Below are positions 18,281 through 37,369 of a stretch of DNA of 37,369 nt, one piece after another. Position 1 is the stretch's first letter, and each line of letters opens with the position of its first letter. Both the position numbers and the translations under genes were made by a program. The notes under the pieces are model-generated. The model worked only from the letters and a program-made list of their open reading frames with translations. It made no database searches and was not told where the DNA came from. The stretch comes from a virus: the IMG/VR virus record IMGVR_UViG_3300021963_000326, positions 1-37,369 of that record; one strand, written 5' to 3'.

Positions 18281-18293
18281 GGGGTTTCCTTTA

Positions 18294-18322
18294 TTGATGT
18301 AAAAAAGTTTAGCACATAAAAT
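18294..18322 (+). promoter_or_regulatory. Putative sigma-70 promoter for the replication operon
   Basis: TTGATG (18294-18299), a 17-base spacer and TAAAAT (18317-18322) match the bacterial consensus in 4/6 and 5/6 positions. Transcription would start near 18329, about 40 bases before ATG 18370. A second, extended minus-10-like element TGGTATTAT lies at 18330-18338. The 89-base AT-rich gap between divergent genes must also hold a leftward promoter, but I cannot pick it out with confidence. Confidence 0.5.
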
Positions 18323-18369
18323 AAAAGTGTGGTATTATTTTTTCTCCACCTCAAATAAAGGACAGTCAA

Positions 18370-18606
18370 ATGGAAATAACTAATAGGACATCAGCGGGCT
18401 TGTGTGAGGCGCTATTCCAAGAGTTTGATTTGTTGCGTGCCGGTATGAGCGATCACCATCGTGCGGCGGCGGTAGCAAAATTAGCTGTGCAAATCATTAA
18501 CACCAAACGGCTTGAAATTGACGCGGCGGTGTTTGATAAAAGTGGGCTAAAGTTTTCGCCGTTAAACCTAACCACTCAAGGGGTTCGAATTGGCCTTCCT
18601 ATATAA
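18370..18606 (+). CDS. Small hypothetical protein
   Basis: A 78-residue protein, first gene of the rightward replication block. It opens MEITNRTSAGLCEALFQEFD and is helical through about residue 55. The start is preceded by AAAGGACAGTCAA, a leader shared with two other genes in this block. No family recognised. It overlaps the next gene by 17 bases. Confidence 0.7.
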   Translation: MEITNRTSAGLCEALFQEFDLLRAGMSDHHRAAAVAKLAVQIINTKRLEIDAAVFDKSGLKFSPLNLTTQGVRIGLPI

Positions 18607-26904: not shown

Positions 26905-27621
26905 CTAAGCCATCGCAAAATGGCGCGCCATGGCGCCATGGACGATAATGGCCGCGCTAGCCTTCGTGGCGCGTCCACCATCGCATGCCTGGCAGTCGAT
27001 GCATTGCATACGCTCGCCCCCTTCTGGGCTCGCCGGGCATGCGAATTCGTTAGATTGCAGGGGTTCCGTTTCGGTGCGGACCCTAAAAGTCCGCCAGCCC
27101 ATGGCGCGCGCGATATCCTGCTCTGCTACGCTGTCAACGGATGCCATGACATAATCTTTTAACGATTGCGCCCACATTCTGCGCCAGGCGTGTGTGTACC
27201 CGGTCCGGCCGGCCGCAGCTGCTAACAGCATGCGCCACTGGCGGACCGGAACCATGGCCGGATCGCCATAGGCGCCCATTCGCACAATGCGCTGTGCAAT
27301 GAGTATCGCGACGGTACCGGGATCATCGGACAAGTCTATGTAATGTCCGCGATGGTAGGCGGACCATACTGAGGATGGCGATTTTCCGATATCAACGTAA
27401 CAGGTCCGTTTACGTGTGGCATTGCCACGGTGCGCGCAATTGCCACAAATAGAGCGATCCTCGCCAGACTGGATAGCATCAAGGGGCGAGATATCCTCTC
27501 GCAGGATCCACGTTTGGACCATATCGCCAGTCTTACCGTTTACTGATTTTAGGGTAGCAATGGCAACAATCGGCGCGCCATCAATCGGACTAGGTCCGCG
27601 AAAGAAGATAAATCCGGCCAT
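26905..27621 (-). CDS. Cys-rich conserved phage protein, first gene of the leftward clamp operon
   Basis: A 238-residue protein with a beta-rich N-terminus (MAGFIFFRGPSPIDGAPIVA) and GKTGDMVQTWILRED. Two Cys clusters stand out: SICGNCAHRGN plus RTCYVDIGKSP at about residues 57-80, and MQCIDCQACDGG near 205-216; both look like zinc or Fe-S sites. Between them, RQWRMLLAAAAGRTGYTHAW is helical. Related proteins are widespread in phages beside replication genes; from memory the family may be DUF7227, which I cannot verify. A DNA-related role is inferred. The promoter at 27686-27714 drives it. Confidence 0.75.
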   Translation of the reverse strand: MAGFIFFRGPSPIDGAPIVAIATLKSVNGKTGDMVQTWILREDISPLDAIQSGEDRSICGNCAHRGNATRKRTCYVDIGKSPSSVWSAYHRGHYIDLSDDPGTVAILIAQRIVRMGAYGDPAMVPVRQWRMLLAAAAGRTGYTHAWRRMWAQSLKDYVMASVDSVAEQDIARAMGWRTFRVRTETEPLQSNEFACPASPEGGERMQCIDCQACDGGRATKASAAIIVHGAMARHFAMA

Positions 27622-27685
27622 GTTTAGACTCCAATGTAGTGTATGAACACGCGCACCGGGTTGGCGTGCGTGGATTTACGAGCGG

Positions 27686-27714
27686 ATTAGAGCATAACTA
27701 GAATTATCTCGCAA
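27686..27714 (-). promoter_or_regulatory. Leftward sigma-70-type promoter
   Basis: On the minus strand TTGCGA (27714-27709), a 17-base spacer and TCTAAT (27691-27686) match the consensus in 4/6 and 5/6 positions. Transcription would start near 27679, some 58 bases before ATG 27621. Confidence 0.5.
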
Positions 27715-27717
27715 GCG

Positions 27718-27732
27718 ATATTGTTACAATAT
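27718..27732. promoter_or_regulatory. Operator-like palindrome
   Basis: ATATTG, TTA, CAATAT: a perfect 6-bp dyad with 3-base centre, starting four bases upstream of the minus-35 of the leftward promoter. Position and symmetry suit a dimeric regulator, host or phage; no phage regulator gene is recognised in the window. Confidence 0.4.
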
Positions 27733-27860
27733 TTGCATGTTATTTGCAGGTTCTTTCCCTCGCGCTTGCGCTCGTTCGTGGGGCGTATGGGCCTGATAAG
27801 CTATATTTCAGTTAGTCATATTTAGGAATCTTAAAAGTTAGGTATGTATAGGTAGCAGGG

Positions 27861-27890
27861 CGCGCGCGCCACAGCGCGCGCGCTGGCGCC
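27861..27890. repeat. Alternating GC tract with perfect 14-bp palindrome
   Basis: Near-continuous CG/GC alternation, with CAGCGCGCGCGCTG (27872-27885) self-complementary and GGCGCC following. Such alternation can adopt cruciform or left-handed DNA. It stands out sharply from the AT-rich DNA just to its left. Confidence 0.7.
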
Positions 27891-27936
27891 GACTTAAAAC
27901 GGGTGCCGAAACTGCACATATGGCCTATAACCCTGT

Positions 27937-27964
27937 GCCAGCCAGCCAGCCAGCCAGCCAGCCA
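27937..27964. repeat. Seven tandem GCCA tetranucleotides
   Basis: 28 bases made of exactly seven GCCA units. No gene reads through it, so a phase-variation role is unlikely. It may be a slippage product or a binding-site cluster. Confidence 0.9.
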
Positions 27965-28002
27965 TATCCCTCATTGTCCACATTTCACGGAATTCAGAGT
28001 CT

Positions 28003-28238
28003 GCCGGATCCGATGGACCGCGGGATCCGATGGACCGATGGACCGCGGGATCCGATGGACCGATGGACCGCGGGATCCGATGGACCGATGGACCGATGGA
28101 CCGCGGGATCCGATGGACCGATGGACCGCGGGATCCGATGGACCGCGGGATCCGATGGACCGCGGGATCCGATGGACCGCGGGATCCGATGGACCGCGGG
28201 ATCCGATGGACCGCGGGATCCGATGGACCGATGAATCC
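28003..28238. repeat. Two-word tandem repeat array (8-bp and 9-bp units)
   Basis: The 236 bases are made of two words: A = GATGGACC and B = GCGGGATCC. Starting from a variant B (GCCGGATCC, 28003-28011), the numbers of A after each B are 1, 2, 2, 3, 2, 1, 1, 1, 1, 1, 1, giving 16 A and 10 further B, then a degenerate end GATGAATCC (28230-28238). The intact words are identical to each other. There are 11 GGATCC sites at spacings of 17, 25 or 33 bases, and every A-B joint makes CCGCGG. Possible roles are iterons, packaging site or regulator-binding array. Confidence 0.95.
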
Positions 28239-28370
28239 GCCTTCCAGGCATCGAGCATCGAGAATTGTTGCATTGCAGCATAGGGGGAGAGAGGGCCGAG
28301 CGCCAAGGGCACAGGTCAGGGCAGCGTTCGTAAGCAATTTTTCAAAATTTTTTATGTCCGCAAGCCAAAC

Positions 28371-28418
28371 ACTTACGCCCCCACTTACGCCCCCACTTAC
28401 GCCCCCACTTACGCCCCC
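28371..28418. repeat. Four tandem copies of a 12-bp repeat
   Basis: ACTTACGCCCCC occurs four times without change (28371, 28383, 28395, 28407), followed by a partial copy and a short duplicated TAGGCCAAA / TAGGCTAAA. It lies 57 bases before the terminase ATG and just after an AT-rich stretch. Confidence 0.93.
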
Positions 28419-28439
28419 ACATAGGCCAAATAGGCTAAA

Positions 28440-28469
28440 TGGACAACGTGTTTAAGTCCGTGGTATAAC
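28440..28469 (+). promoter_or_regulatory. Promoter for the terminase/late operon
   Basis: TGGACA (28440-28445), 18-base spacer, TATAAC (28464-28469) with a TGG extension directly before it. Matches to consensus are 5/6 and 5/6. The expected start of transcription, about seven bases after the minus-10, is the A of the terminase ATG (28476), which would make a leaderless message. Confidence 0.55.
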
Positions 28470-28475
28470 GCAGCC

Positions 28476-28883
28476 ATGTTCCAGTCCCTACCACTGGCTA
28501 TCCGACCTAGAGTTCAGGCGACAGAGGCGCGTCTGGATGCCATATATAAAGCAGCATCTATGGGGTTGAAAGGAGATTCACTGGCACTGGCGTCTGGGAT
28601 GCTGCCTTTGGAGTACCGGCAATTGTGCCAATTTGACCCATTGGCCGAACTGGCCGCGCAAAAGGGCAAGGCCGATAGTGAGTTGCGCGCAGCGCAGCGT
28701 CTGAACGAGGCGTCTGAACAAGGCGACGCCAAGGCGAGCCTGGCAATACTTCAACACGTCCACGGGTGGACAGCACGGCAGGAGATCAGTGTGGACGTGT
28801 ACCAGAAGATCAGCGTCATCACGGCGCTTGAGCAGGCCCGCGCAAGGGTGATCGAGGGGCAAGCAGTTGAGATAAGCCCCTGA
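28476..28883 (+). CDS. Terminase small subunit
   Basis: A 135-residue protein directly upstream of, and overlapping by one base, the large terminase. The N-terminal part (ATEARLDAIYKAASMGLKGD ... ASGMLPLEYRQL) looks like a helix-turn-helix DNA-binding domain; the centre (QKGKADSELRAAQRLNEASE, GDAKASLAILQHVHGW) is the helical oligomerisation region seen in small terminases. It recognises the packaging site, often near or in its own gene. No ribosome site precedes ATG 28476, which fits the leaderless promoter reading. P22 gp3 is 162 residues, so the size is plausible. Confidence 0.83.
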   Translation: MFQSLPLAIRPRVQATEARLDAIYKAASMGLKGDSLALASGMLPLEYRQLCQFDPLAELAAQKGKADSELRAAQRLNEASEQGDAKASLAILQHVHGWTARQEISVDVYQKISVITALEQARARVIEGQAVEISP

Positions 28884-30406
28884 TGCAAACCCCAATCTAC
28901 ACCTCCGAAGACGAACAAAAGCTCATGGTTGAGTTGTGGTCGCCGCAGATCTGCGACGACCCGGAGGCGTTTGTTCTGCTGGCCTTCCCGTGGGGCCAGA
29001 AGAACACCCCGCTGCACAAGTTCAAAGGCCCGCGCAAGTGGCAGCGCGAAGTCCTGCGCGACATCAAGCAACATATAGATAACAACAAGGGTAAGGTGCA
29101 GATGGACACCCTGCGAGAGGCGGTCAGTAGCGGGCGCGGGATCGGCAAGTCAGCCTTGGTGAGTTGGCTGGTGCTGTGGATGCTGACCACCCGCATCGGC
29201 GCGAGCGTCATCATCAGCGCCAACTCGGAGAGTCAACTACGGTCGGTGACCTGGGCCGAGCTAACCAAGTGGGCGGCGATGACCATCAACAACCACTGGT
29301 TCGAGATCAGCGCGACCAAGCTGGTGCCGGCGGCGTGGCTATGCGAGTTGGTCGAGCGGGATCTCAAGAAAGGTACGCGGTACTGGGCCGCAGAGGGCAA
29401 GCTCTGGTCGGCTGAGAACCCCGACAGCTACGCAGGCGTCCACAACCAGGACGGCATGATGCTGATCTTCGACGAGTCATCAGGTATCCCCAACCCTATC
29501 TGGGAGGTTGGCGCCGGGTTCTTCACCGAGAACACACCGGACAGGTACTGGTTTGCTTTTAGCAACCCCCGGCGCAACGAGGGGTACTTTTTCGAGTGTT
29601 TTAACGCAAAAAGAGCGTTCTGGAACACCCGTAGTGTGGACGCAAGAACGGTGGAGGACACCGACAAGCAGGTCTACGAGCAGATTATCGCCGAGTACGG
29701 CGAGGACAGTCCCCAGGCCAAGGTGGAGGTGTATGGTGAATTTCCGAGCGCGGGTGAGGATCAGTTCATCTCGGCGGTGCTGGTGGACGATGCAGCAAAA
29801 AGACCCCGATACAAAGATGCCACCGCACCTGTGGTTATGGGAATTGACCCAGCGCGAGGCGGCGCTGACTCGACGGTTATCGTGGTCCGTCAAGGGCGCG
29901 ACCTGGTGGCGATAAAACGCTACTCGGGCGAGGACACCATGACCATCGTCGGGCGGGTGATCGACGCCATCGAGGAATACAAGCCTACGCTGTCAGTAAT
30001 CGACGAAGGCGGCCTCGGATACGGCATACTTGACAGGCTGACAGAACAACGGTACAAGGTGCGTGGGGTAAACTTTGGCTGGAAGGCCAAGAACTCCATT
30101 ATGTGGGGCAACAAGCGGGCTGAAATGTGGGGCACCATGAAGGACTGGCTGAAAACAGCGTCCATCCCGACCGACCGGCAACTAAAAGCCGATCTGCTTG
30201 GACCCATGAAGAAGCCCAACAGCAGCGGTACGATTTTCCTTGAGGGGAAAAAAGAGATGCGAAGCCGAGGACTGGCCTCACCCGATGCCGCTGACGCGCT
30301 GGCCGTCACGTTTGCTTTCCCTGTCGCGCACCGCGAGTACCGCGAACCTGCGCGCCGGATAAATTCTCAGTCAAACAGCGTAACTAACTCTTGGATGGGC
30401 AGTTAG
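28883..30406 (+). CDS. Terminase large subunit
   Basis: A 507-residue DNA packaging motor, ATPase plus nuclease. Walker A is SSGRGIGKSALVSW near residues 82-95, Walker B with catalytic Glu is MLIFDESSGIPN near 193-204, the coupling motif SNPRRNEG follows near 231. The RNase H-like nuclease has MGIDPARGGADST near residue 319 (first Asp), SVIDEGGLG near 372 and ASPDAADALAVTF near 466 (last Asp). It is close in size to P22 gp2 (499 residues), and this lineage typically packages by headful, which fits the circular map. ATG overlaps the small subunit stop. Confidence 0.95.
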   Translation: MQTPIYTSEDEQKLMVELWSPQICDDPEAFVLLAFPWGQKNTPLHKFKGPRKWQREVLRDIKQHIDNNKGKVQMDTLREAVSSGRGIGKSALVSWLVLWMLTTRIGASVIISANSESQLRSVTWAELTKWAAMTINNHWFEISATKLVPAAWLCELVERDLKKGTRYWAAEGKLWSAENPDSYAGVHNQDGMMLIFDESSGIPNPIWEVGAGFFTENTPDRYWFAFSNPRRNEGYFFECFNAKRAFWNTRSVDARTVEDTDKQVYEQIIAEYGEDSPQAKVEVYGEFPSAGEDQFISAVLVDDAAKRPRYKDATAPVVMGIDPARGGADSTVIVVRQGRDLVAIKRYSGEDTMTIVGRVIDAIEEYKPTLSVIDEGGLGYGILDRLTEQRYKVRGVNFGWKAKNSIMWGNKRAEMWGTMKDWLKTASIPTDRQLKADLLGPMKKPNSSGTIFLEGKKEMRSRGLASPDAADALAVTFAFPVAHREYREPARRINSQSNSVTNSWMGS

Positions 30407-37062: not shown

Positions 37063-37369
37063 ATGGCACTTCCCTCAGTTGGTGGCGGCTATCAGTTCAC
37101 TGATGGCAATACGAATGAACTGGAAATTGACACCCAAGCAGCGCCGCAAACGGCAACGTCCACGGCAACCTTGACCACCACGCAAGTTTTGGGTGGTCTG
37201 TTGGTAGTAGATCCAACGACTACAGCTTCAAGTCTTACCATGCCTACGGCAACCGCAATCGACGCAGTAATGACCAACATGAAAACCAACAGCACGTTTC
37301 GGCTGACGGTTGTCAACATTGGCACTAGCACCGGAGTGGTTACGATGGTGGTTGGCACCGGCATTACTG
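37063..37369 (+). CDS. Small virion-type protein, N-terminal part (continues at base 1-277)
   Basis: ATG 37063 follows a strong TTAGGAGAAACG ribosome site. The reading frame is open to the window end and joins in frame to 1-277 through the 161-base overlap, giving about 140 residues: MALPSVGGGYQFTDGNTNEL, then AAPQTATSTATLTTTQVLGG and the part described at base 1. It comes straight after coat, the usual place for a decoration or head-stabilising protein. That role is inference. The single base that differs between the two overlap copies is silent. Confidence 0.87.
   Translation, partial: MALPSVGGGYQFTDGNTNELEIDTQAAPQTATSTATLTTTQVLGGLLVVDPTTTASSLTMPTATAIDAVMTNMKTNSTFRLTVVNIGTSTGVVTMVVGTGIT
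37209..37369. repeat. Terminal direct repeat, right copy
   Basis: Same 161 bases as 1-161, with one substitution at 37335. See the left copy for interpretation. Confidence 0.93.

Follow-up and report, generated by a model that had tools for sequence, protein, structure and literature searches.

Exchangeable tandem repeats beside a conserved G-box/T-box core upstream of terS: a candidate packaging region in a P22-like environmental phage

How headful phages find their packaging site (pac) with a small terminase subunit (TerS) that has almost no DNA sequence preference is a question to which an intergenic gap in an environmental virus record, of a freshwater phage with P22-like head genes, may be relevant. 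The stretch analysed here, called the window, comprises 37,369 nucleotides. Its ends (1-161 and 37209-37369) overlap over 161 bp, making a circle of 37,208 bp plausible; the single mismatch in the overlap represents a variant or an error at circle closure. Portal, coat and Hc3 matches of this phage are of the Sf6/P22 kind. The gap of 854 bp (27622-28475) is bordered on the left by a minus-strand gene for a protein of 238 aa (26905-27621, a match to phrog_2554) and on the right by plus-strand terS (28476-28883, 135 aa), which is followed by terL on the same strand (28883-30406, 507 aa). A second, short AT-rich divergent gap lies between replication genes (18290-18370) and is a candidate early promoter region. 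An earlier note had drawn attention to the intergenic gap of about 850 bases and proposed that it is laid out like a replication origin or a pac site.

The gap and all six sequence elements listed in the note were found. An imperfect, operator-like GC-rich dyad (about 27645-27673, read by eye) lies just upstream of the leftward gene and is followed by 2.5 copies of an 11-bp direct repeat, TATTTGCA(T/G)GT (27730-27756), an alternating GC palindrome (27858-27889) whose arms (27860-27869 and 27874-27883) pair in 10 of 10 positions, and seven plus-strand copies of GCCA (27937-27964). The most prominent element is a two-word tandem array on the plus strand (28006-28230, TRF score 301). A second dyad, TGTTGCA-T-TGCAGCA (28266-28280), separates the array from a core on the plus strand (28283-28342), consisting of GGGGG..GGGCC, a fixed spacer and CAATTTTT, which is a candidate recognition or cleavage element for packaging. 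The T-box of the core forms the left end of the AT-rich patch (28336-28358; GC 26% over 28334-28360), and 4.2 plus-strand copies of the 12-bp direct repeat CACTTACGCCCC (28370-28420, TRF score 102) and an extended -10-like TGGTATAAC on the plus strand (28461-28469), 6 nt before the terS ATG, complete the region. When the region was shuffled 500 times with dinucleotide content preserved, TRF never scored higher than 67, hence always below 100, and elsewhere in the window no TRF row had at least three copies and a score of at least 60.

The array can be parsed into 26 words (28011-28228), 16 of CGATGGAC (A) and 10 of CGCGGGATC (B), in the order ABAABAABAAABAABABABABABABA, and mixes an 8-mer and a 9-mer. 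Within the window, all 16 occurrences of the first word and 10 of the 11 occurrences of the second are inside the array. Eleven of the 12 BamHI sites (GGATCC) of the window also fall within the region (28001-28240), a clustering that is odd for a phage if its hosts carry such a restriction enzyme. Comparison with relatives divides the region into a conserved core and repeats on its left. These repeats form a block that is conserved in position and variable in words, of which the two-word array is the form found in a single lineage.

The name terS is supported by a predicted fold similar to Sf6 TerS and by the position before terL. The structure predicted for the protein, at a mean pLDDT of 71, combines a helix-turn-helix-like start with a long helix, and a structural aligner placed Sf6 TerS on top (Z 7.5 and 7.2; 85 and 84 residues aligned, at an rmsd of about 5 and with 7% identity; the next row had Z 4.4). 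Foldseek returned no match at E ≤0.001 and Pfam none for this protein, so that the structural ranking supports the name and does not prove it. Of annotated phages, DSL-LC05 and MW202483, both from metagenomes, are the nearest to the window, and MW202483 alone gave a terS match when 50,697 phage records were searched. A search of 84,980 genomes of bacteria and archaea turned up four relatives of terS, from bins labelled actinobacterium, Burkholderiales, Rhodoferax and Proteobacteria, which are a lead only to the host since bins can be contaminated. The loci from the Burkholderiales and Rhodoferax bins (L368 and L369) contain tandem GTCCACATT, giving TTGTCCACA words, which we take to be close to the DnaA box consensus.

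For comparison, three sets of TerS relatives were used, the best 80 of 265, the best 80 of 345 and the best 80 of 99 relatives. TerS of the window and of the MW202483 type are 51-55% identical, and the DSL-LC05 type is Sf6-type by Pfam and has mainly the C-terminal tail in common with the window protein. Two unlike N-terminal types in related phages are joined to one ISITEALAQAQARVIEGE-like tail (L162:4293-4748 versus window 28476-28883), which could reflect a domain swap that retained the presumed TerL-binding tail. Two different terS loci (L295 and L312) are found in one record of 72,555 bp, about two genome lengths, which is either a chimera or contains tandem genomes.

An alignment of 60 sequences, which omits identical segments and 11 loci that were pattern-less or too short, defined the core as five G, a few bases, GGGCC, a spacer of near-constant length and AA(C)TTTTT. 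A plain pattern of this layout matched upstream of terS and on the terS strand in 206 of 222 loci from three clades, never twice: in 60/72 loci of the window clade, 74/74 of the DSL-LC05 type and 72/76 of the MW202483 type. The distance between G-box and T-box goes with the type of terS, measuring 39 bp in 48 of 60 window-type, 45 bp in 60 of 74 DSL-type and 37 bp in 56 of 72 MW-type loci. Outside the site, the pattern occurred once in 491 kb of 15 long contigs, 14 of which were free of it; the lone match comes from the 12-mer array of the window itself, on the opposite strand. A sequence-only profile gave a single match in the window (28265-28354, E 1e-17) and one match per long contig, at the edge of the array; in DSL-LC05 the match was weak (12.6 bits, E 0.04) and accompanied by a second, weaker one elsewhere, and MW202483 had no profile match. 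The four terS relatives from bacterial bins, which were outside the training of the profile, scored 28.5, 19.7, 12 and 8.8 bits just upstream of terS. Among the 12 window-clade loci missed by the pattern, five were recovered by the profile (L023, L026, L028, L046 and L058) and three through their long contigs (L048, L062 and L065), and L041 and L072 are present in the core alignment; in the MW type, where the pattern missed four loci, variants of the core can be seen by eye in L335 and L346. No core was found in P26218 with the plain pattern, nor was one visible by eye in MW202898. P26218 has a gap of about 500 bp before its putative terS (L354:33146-33653) with repeated GCTACAAC and GTTGTAGC words.

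The core ends 38-165 bp before terS in the window clade, 181-236 bp in the DSL type and 25-523 bp in the MW clade, a variation that speaks against its being a constant component of the promoter of terS. A better candidate for this promoter is the extended -10-like TGNTATAA directly before the terS ATG, which is kept in many relatives and whose spacing of 6 nt suggests a leaderless or near-leaderless late terS transcript. A scan for the sigma-70 consensus yielded no more matches than in shuffles. A conserved RNA fold was rejected, as the core offered two pairs with zero compensatory changes in 60 sequences, and the two Rfam matches were both far below the gathering score. In some relatives, of different lineages, the core is parted from terS by a homing-endonuclease-like gene (L046:4294-4950, L023:1429-2091, L163:10712-11158), which is of the NUMOD4 type in L046 and L023 (the latter weakly PD-(D/E)XK) and HNH in MW202483, and there array and core remain together. 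Phage termini were proposed as likely targets of homing endonucleases in a passage of PMC10448857, with HK97 as the packaging case.

The repeats on the left of the core were quantified by an alignment-free count of repeated 8-mers in the adjacent 300 bp, after near-duplicates and loci short of flank had been dropped. Of 135 distinct loci, 129 had a count above the highest of 20 shuffles (44/45, 44/49 and 41/41 in the three clades), and the median in a control stretch of terL was zero. Tandem arrays of at least three copies and a TRF score of 60 were present in 47 of 52 loci of the window clade whose sequence extends 590 bp or more beyond the left side of the core, the remaining five having shorter or sparser repeats, and the best units ranged from 4 to 71 bp. 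Words in relatives include GGCCTGTC, TGGCCGTGC, CCGGCTCGA, TCGACC, GCCT, a 22-mer around AGTGCTTACTAAC and TTGCCTAGGCAATGG. At the same threshold, the 15 long contigs carried arrays within about 1.1 kb upstream of terS, except G005, with its array at about 2 kb, and G006, in which none was detected; in G001 and G008 arrays also occurred at the opposite end of the contig, where the sequence of the near end recurs. Coding function of the array was rejected, because unit lengths such as 4, 8, 17 and 22 bp would not preserve a reading frame, none being divisible by three. The accompanying elements vary as well: dyads like the one at the leftward gene are visible by eye in several relatives, the place of the GC palindrome is taken by GC-rich dyads of other spelling (also by eye), several relatives have GCCA, GCCT or CTGC arrays, the TGTTGCA-T-TGCAGCA dyad is common to many relatives but not all, and 11-12-mers akin to the CACTTACGCCCC repeats occur in some and are missing from others.

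Words are replaced where the surroundings are not. In 16 loci that hold the left anchor, so that both flanks were anchored, both flanks were alike (score of at least 0.5) in 10 of 120 pairs. Four of these ten had an array score of 0.03, no better than that obtained after shuffling (mean 0.05); in each of the four, a 22-mer array is paired with one of TCGACC or GCCTGTCG. The window and contig G011 are 93% identical in PolA and primase, 92% in TerS, 94% in TerL, 87% in the exonuclease and 83% in the helicase (51-99% over all shared proteins), and yet their array words are unrelated. With 83-94% identity in replication, recombination and terminase proteins, it is unlikely that these proteins read the words by letter. 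Copy number differs as well. L002 matches the window without a difference for 5,238 bp, beginning 238 bp upstream of terS, and yet contains fewer array words in the right part of the array, to which the comparison is confined because the contig begins inside it. Between L006 and L008 the difference is a single 17-bp unit, with flanks of at least 99.8% identity; copy numbers are uncertain, as short-read assembly may collapse arrays. Copies within GC-word arrays are near-perfect, and some lineages hold a word type for long, such as the 22-mers or ACCC-GGGT dyads. After near-duplicates and loci with too little flank had again been removed, words repeated in inverted order further left exceeded shuffles in 9/44 window-clade, 20/45 DSL-type and 15/39 MW-type loci (1, 5 and 0 in the control); the window itself has no such two-sided words. 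The architecture is real, deeply conserved and, within the searches made, undescribed: titles, abstract openings and passages of the literature yielded no account of such arrays beside terS.

From this combination we infer that the region may be the pac region of a P22-like podovirus with a layout like that of SPP1 and SF6, the core containing the cut site and the array serving as a platform, a reading to which we give a little less than even confidence. Of the earlier proposal, the pac half is favoured by the occurrence of the core once per genome upstream of terS in three clades. SPP1/SF6 appears to be the nearest known arrangement. According to PMC4737164, SPP1 pac lies over the terS promoters and has three sets of direct repeats. 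The boxA repeats are missing from SF6, and yet SF6 TerS can substitute for the SPP1 protein; its domain shows little sequence specificity in DNA binding, for which selection of bent DNA was proposed. Here, too, the site (pacL-pacC-pacR in SPP1/SF6) is located upstream of or over the terS promoter, the core ending 25-523 bp before terS in the 206 of 222 loci, several sets of direct repeats surround it, and repeats differ between relatives with similar TerS. Unlike in SPP1/SF6, the repeats on the left form long tandem arrays whose words are replaced entirely, the G-box/T-box core is conserved over three clades, and the site is known from sequence rather than from mapped termini. An arrangement of the SPP1/SF6 kind predicts that repeats are kept while their letters are free and that a fixed cleavage zone lies beside them. 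The 60-bp core would then be where terminase is positioned and cuts, and the repeat block on its left would be the non-encapsidated side, a landing platform for ring-shaped TerS. If TerS contacted the array by DNA shape and repetition and not by letters, the array could be freely rewritten by gain, loss and replacement of units; alternatively, it may be a scar of breaks occurring there. To the right, the 12-mers and the extended -10 would constitute the TerS side, which includes the late promoter.

Similarity to headful packaging of Sf6 and P22 lies in the predicted TerS fold, which the structural aligner ranks closest to Sf6 TerS, and in the Pfam Sf6-type TerS of a related clade, but P22 pac is placed inside the terS gene in PMC9611059, whereas the conserved element here is upstream of terS. 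A site directly upstream of terS is also typical of lambda/HK97-type cos, and the HNH and NUMOD4-type genes beside it in some relatives recall the HNH gene by the HK97 terminase mentioned in PMC10448857; in contrast to cos phages, the contigs here close into circles and cohesive ends are not evident. In favour of pac, the Rhodoferax podovirus P26218, which shared genes connect with DSL-LC05 (PMC10611076), was judged terminally redundant or permuted (PMC4657236). Contig ends were considered as termini and rejected: in the window clade they cluster in the array, as assembly breaks would, and two contigs starting alike at the T-box came from one sample. Among 43 DSL-type contigs ending upstream of terS, five end inside the core, which could be due to sequencing drop-out at G-runs. 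Contig ends cannot decide on termini, because the near-complete G015 closes across the core by a 127-bp overlap and G016 breaks at the G-run.

A bolder form of the packaging reading, which we consider unlikely though worth stating, is that repetition itself is the conserved signal, the array acting as a centromere-like phage satellite that can be rewritten and loads terminase beside the fixed G/T core. Herpesvirus 'a' sequences have G-run and T-run packaging motifs beside GC-rich variable tandem repeats, and the likeness to this region is one of appearance only. Against the pac reading, the word sets of some lineages, with dyads or two-sided words, resemble specific binding sites and would fit operators or an origin. 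The location of P22 pac inside terS, the lack of a visible core in P26218 and MW202898 and the failure of the profile to match MW202483 count against it as well.

A divergent early/late control region, in which words are operators of a fast-diverging regulator and the core is a regulatory element of the late promoter, would suit the location, with a leftward gene on one side and the genes for terminase on the other, the dyad words of several lineages and the extended -10 adjoining terS. It is difficult to reconcile with a core-to-terS distance that spans 38-165 bp in the window clade and extends to 523 bp in the MW clade, and with GCCA, GCCT and CTGC arrays devoid of a dyad. Moreover, among the 15 long contigs, several of them incomplete, no DNA-binding-like gene tracked the class of array, the only genes that did so encoding small membrane proteins, presumably lysis-like. 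We regard such a control region as improbable.

We are equally doubtful about a replication origin, with the repeats as initiator boxes (iterons) and the AT-rich patch as unwinding element, although repeats adjoin this patch, as in SPP1 oriL and oriR according to PMC6316719, the Rhodoferax-bin locus L369 has its tandem GTCCACATT with TTGTCCACA words resembling a DnaA box, and inverted words further left exceed shuffles in part of the DSL- and MW-type loci (20/45 and 15/39). Iterons rarely have units as short as 4-10 bp, and the window is without two-sided words. Unlike in SPP1-type phage origins, the words are not common to relatives with alike replication proteins, PolA and primase included, unless small or host initiators are involved. 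The cumulative GC skew, suggested by the earlier note as a check, has its minimum at 27285, near the region but 337 bp to its left; it drops along stretches of minus-strand genes, the third-position skew by gene has no two-replichore pattern, and the minima of relatives lie at various places. The skew thus follows gene strand and does not inform on an origin, so that this half of the proposal was neither strengthened nor weakened.

Least probable of all is a functionless array, a hot spot of slippage and break repair beside an unrelated conserved element, since copy number changes between contigs identical over 5.2 kb, arbitrary unit length and spelling and near-perfect GC-word copies would be expected of it, but not an array in almost all relatives examined from three clades, locked to one side of the core, nor word types such as the 22-mers and ACCC-GGGT dyads held for long in some lineages.

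On the packaging reading, a group of phages that keeps core and repeats but swaps the words would constitute a natural experiment, one TerS facing many arrays, on how headful phages find pac with a TerS that is nearly indifferent to sequence. The G-box/T-box core may in addition be used as a marker for the putative packaging start in uncultured phages.
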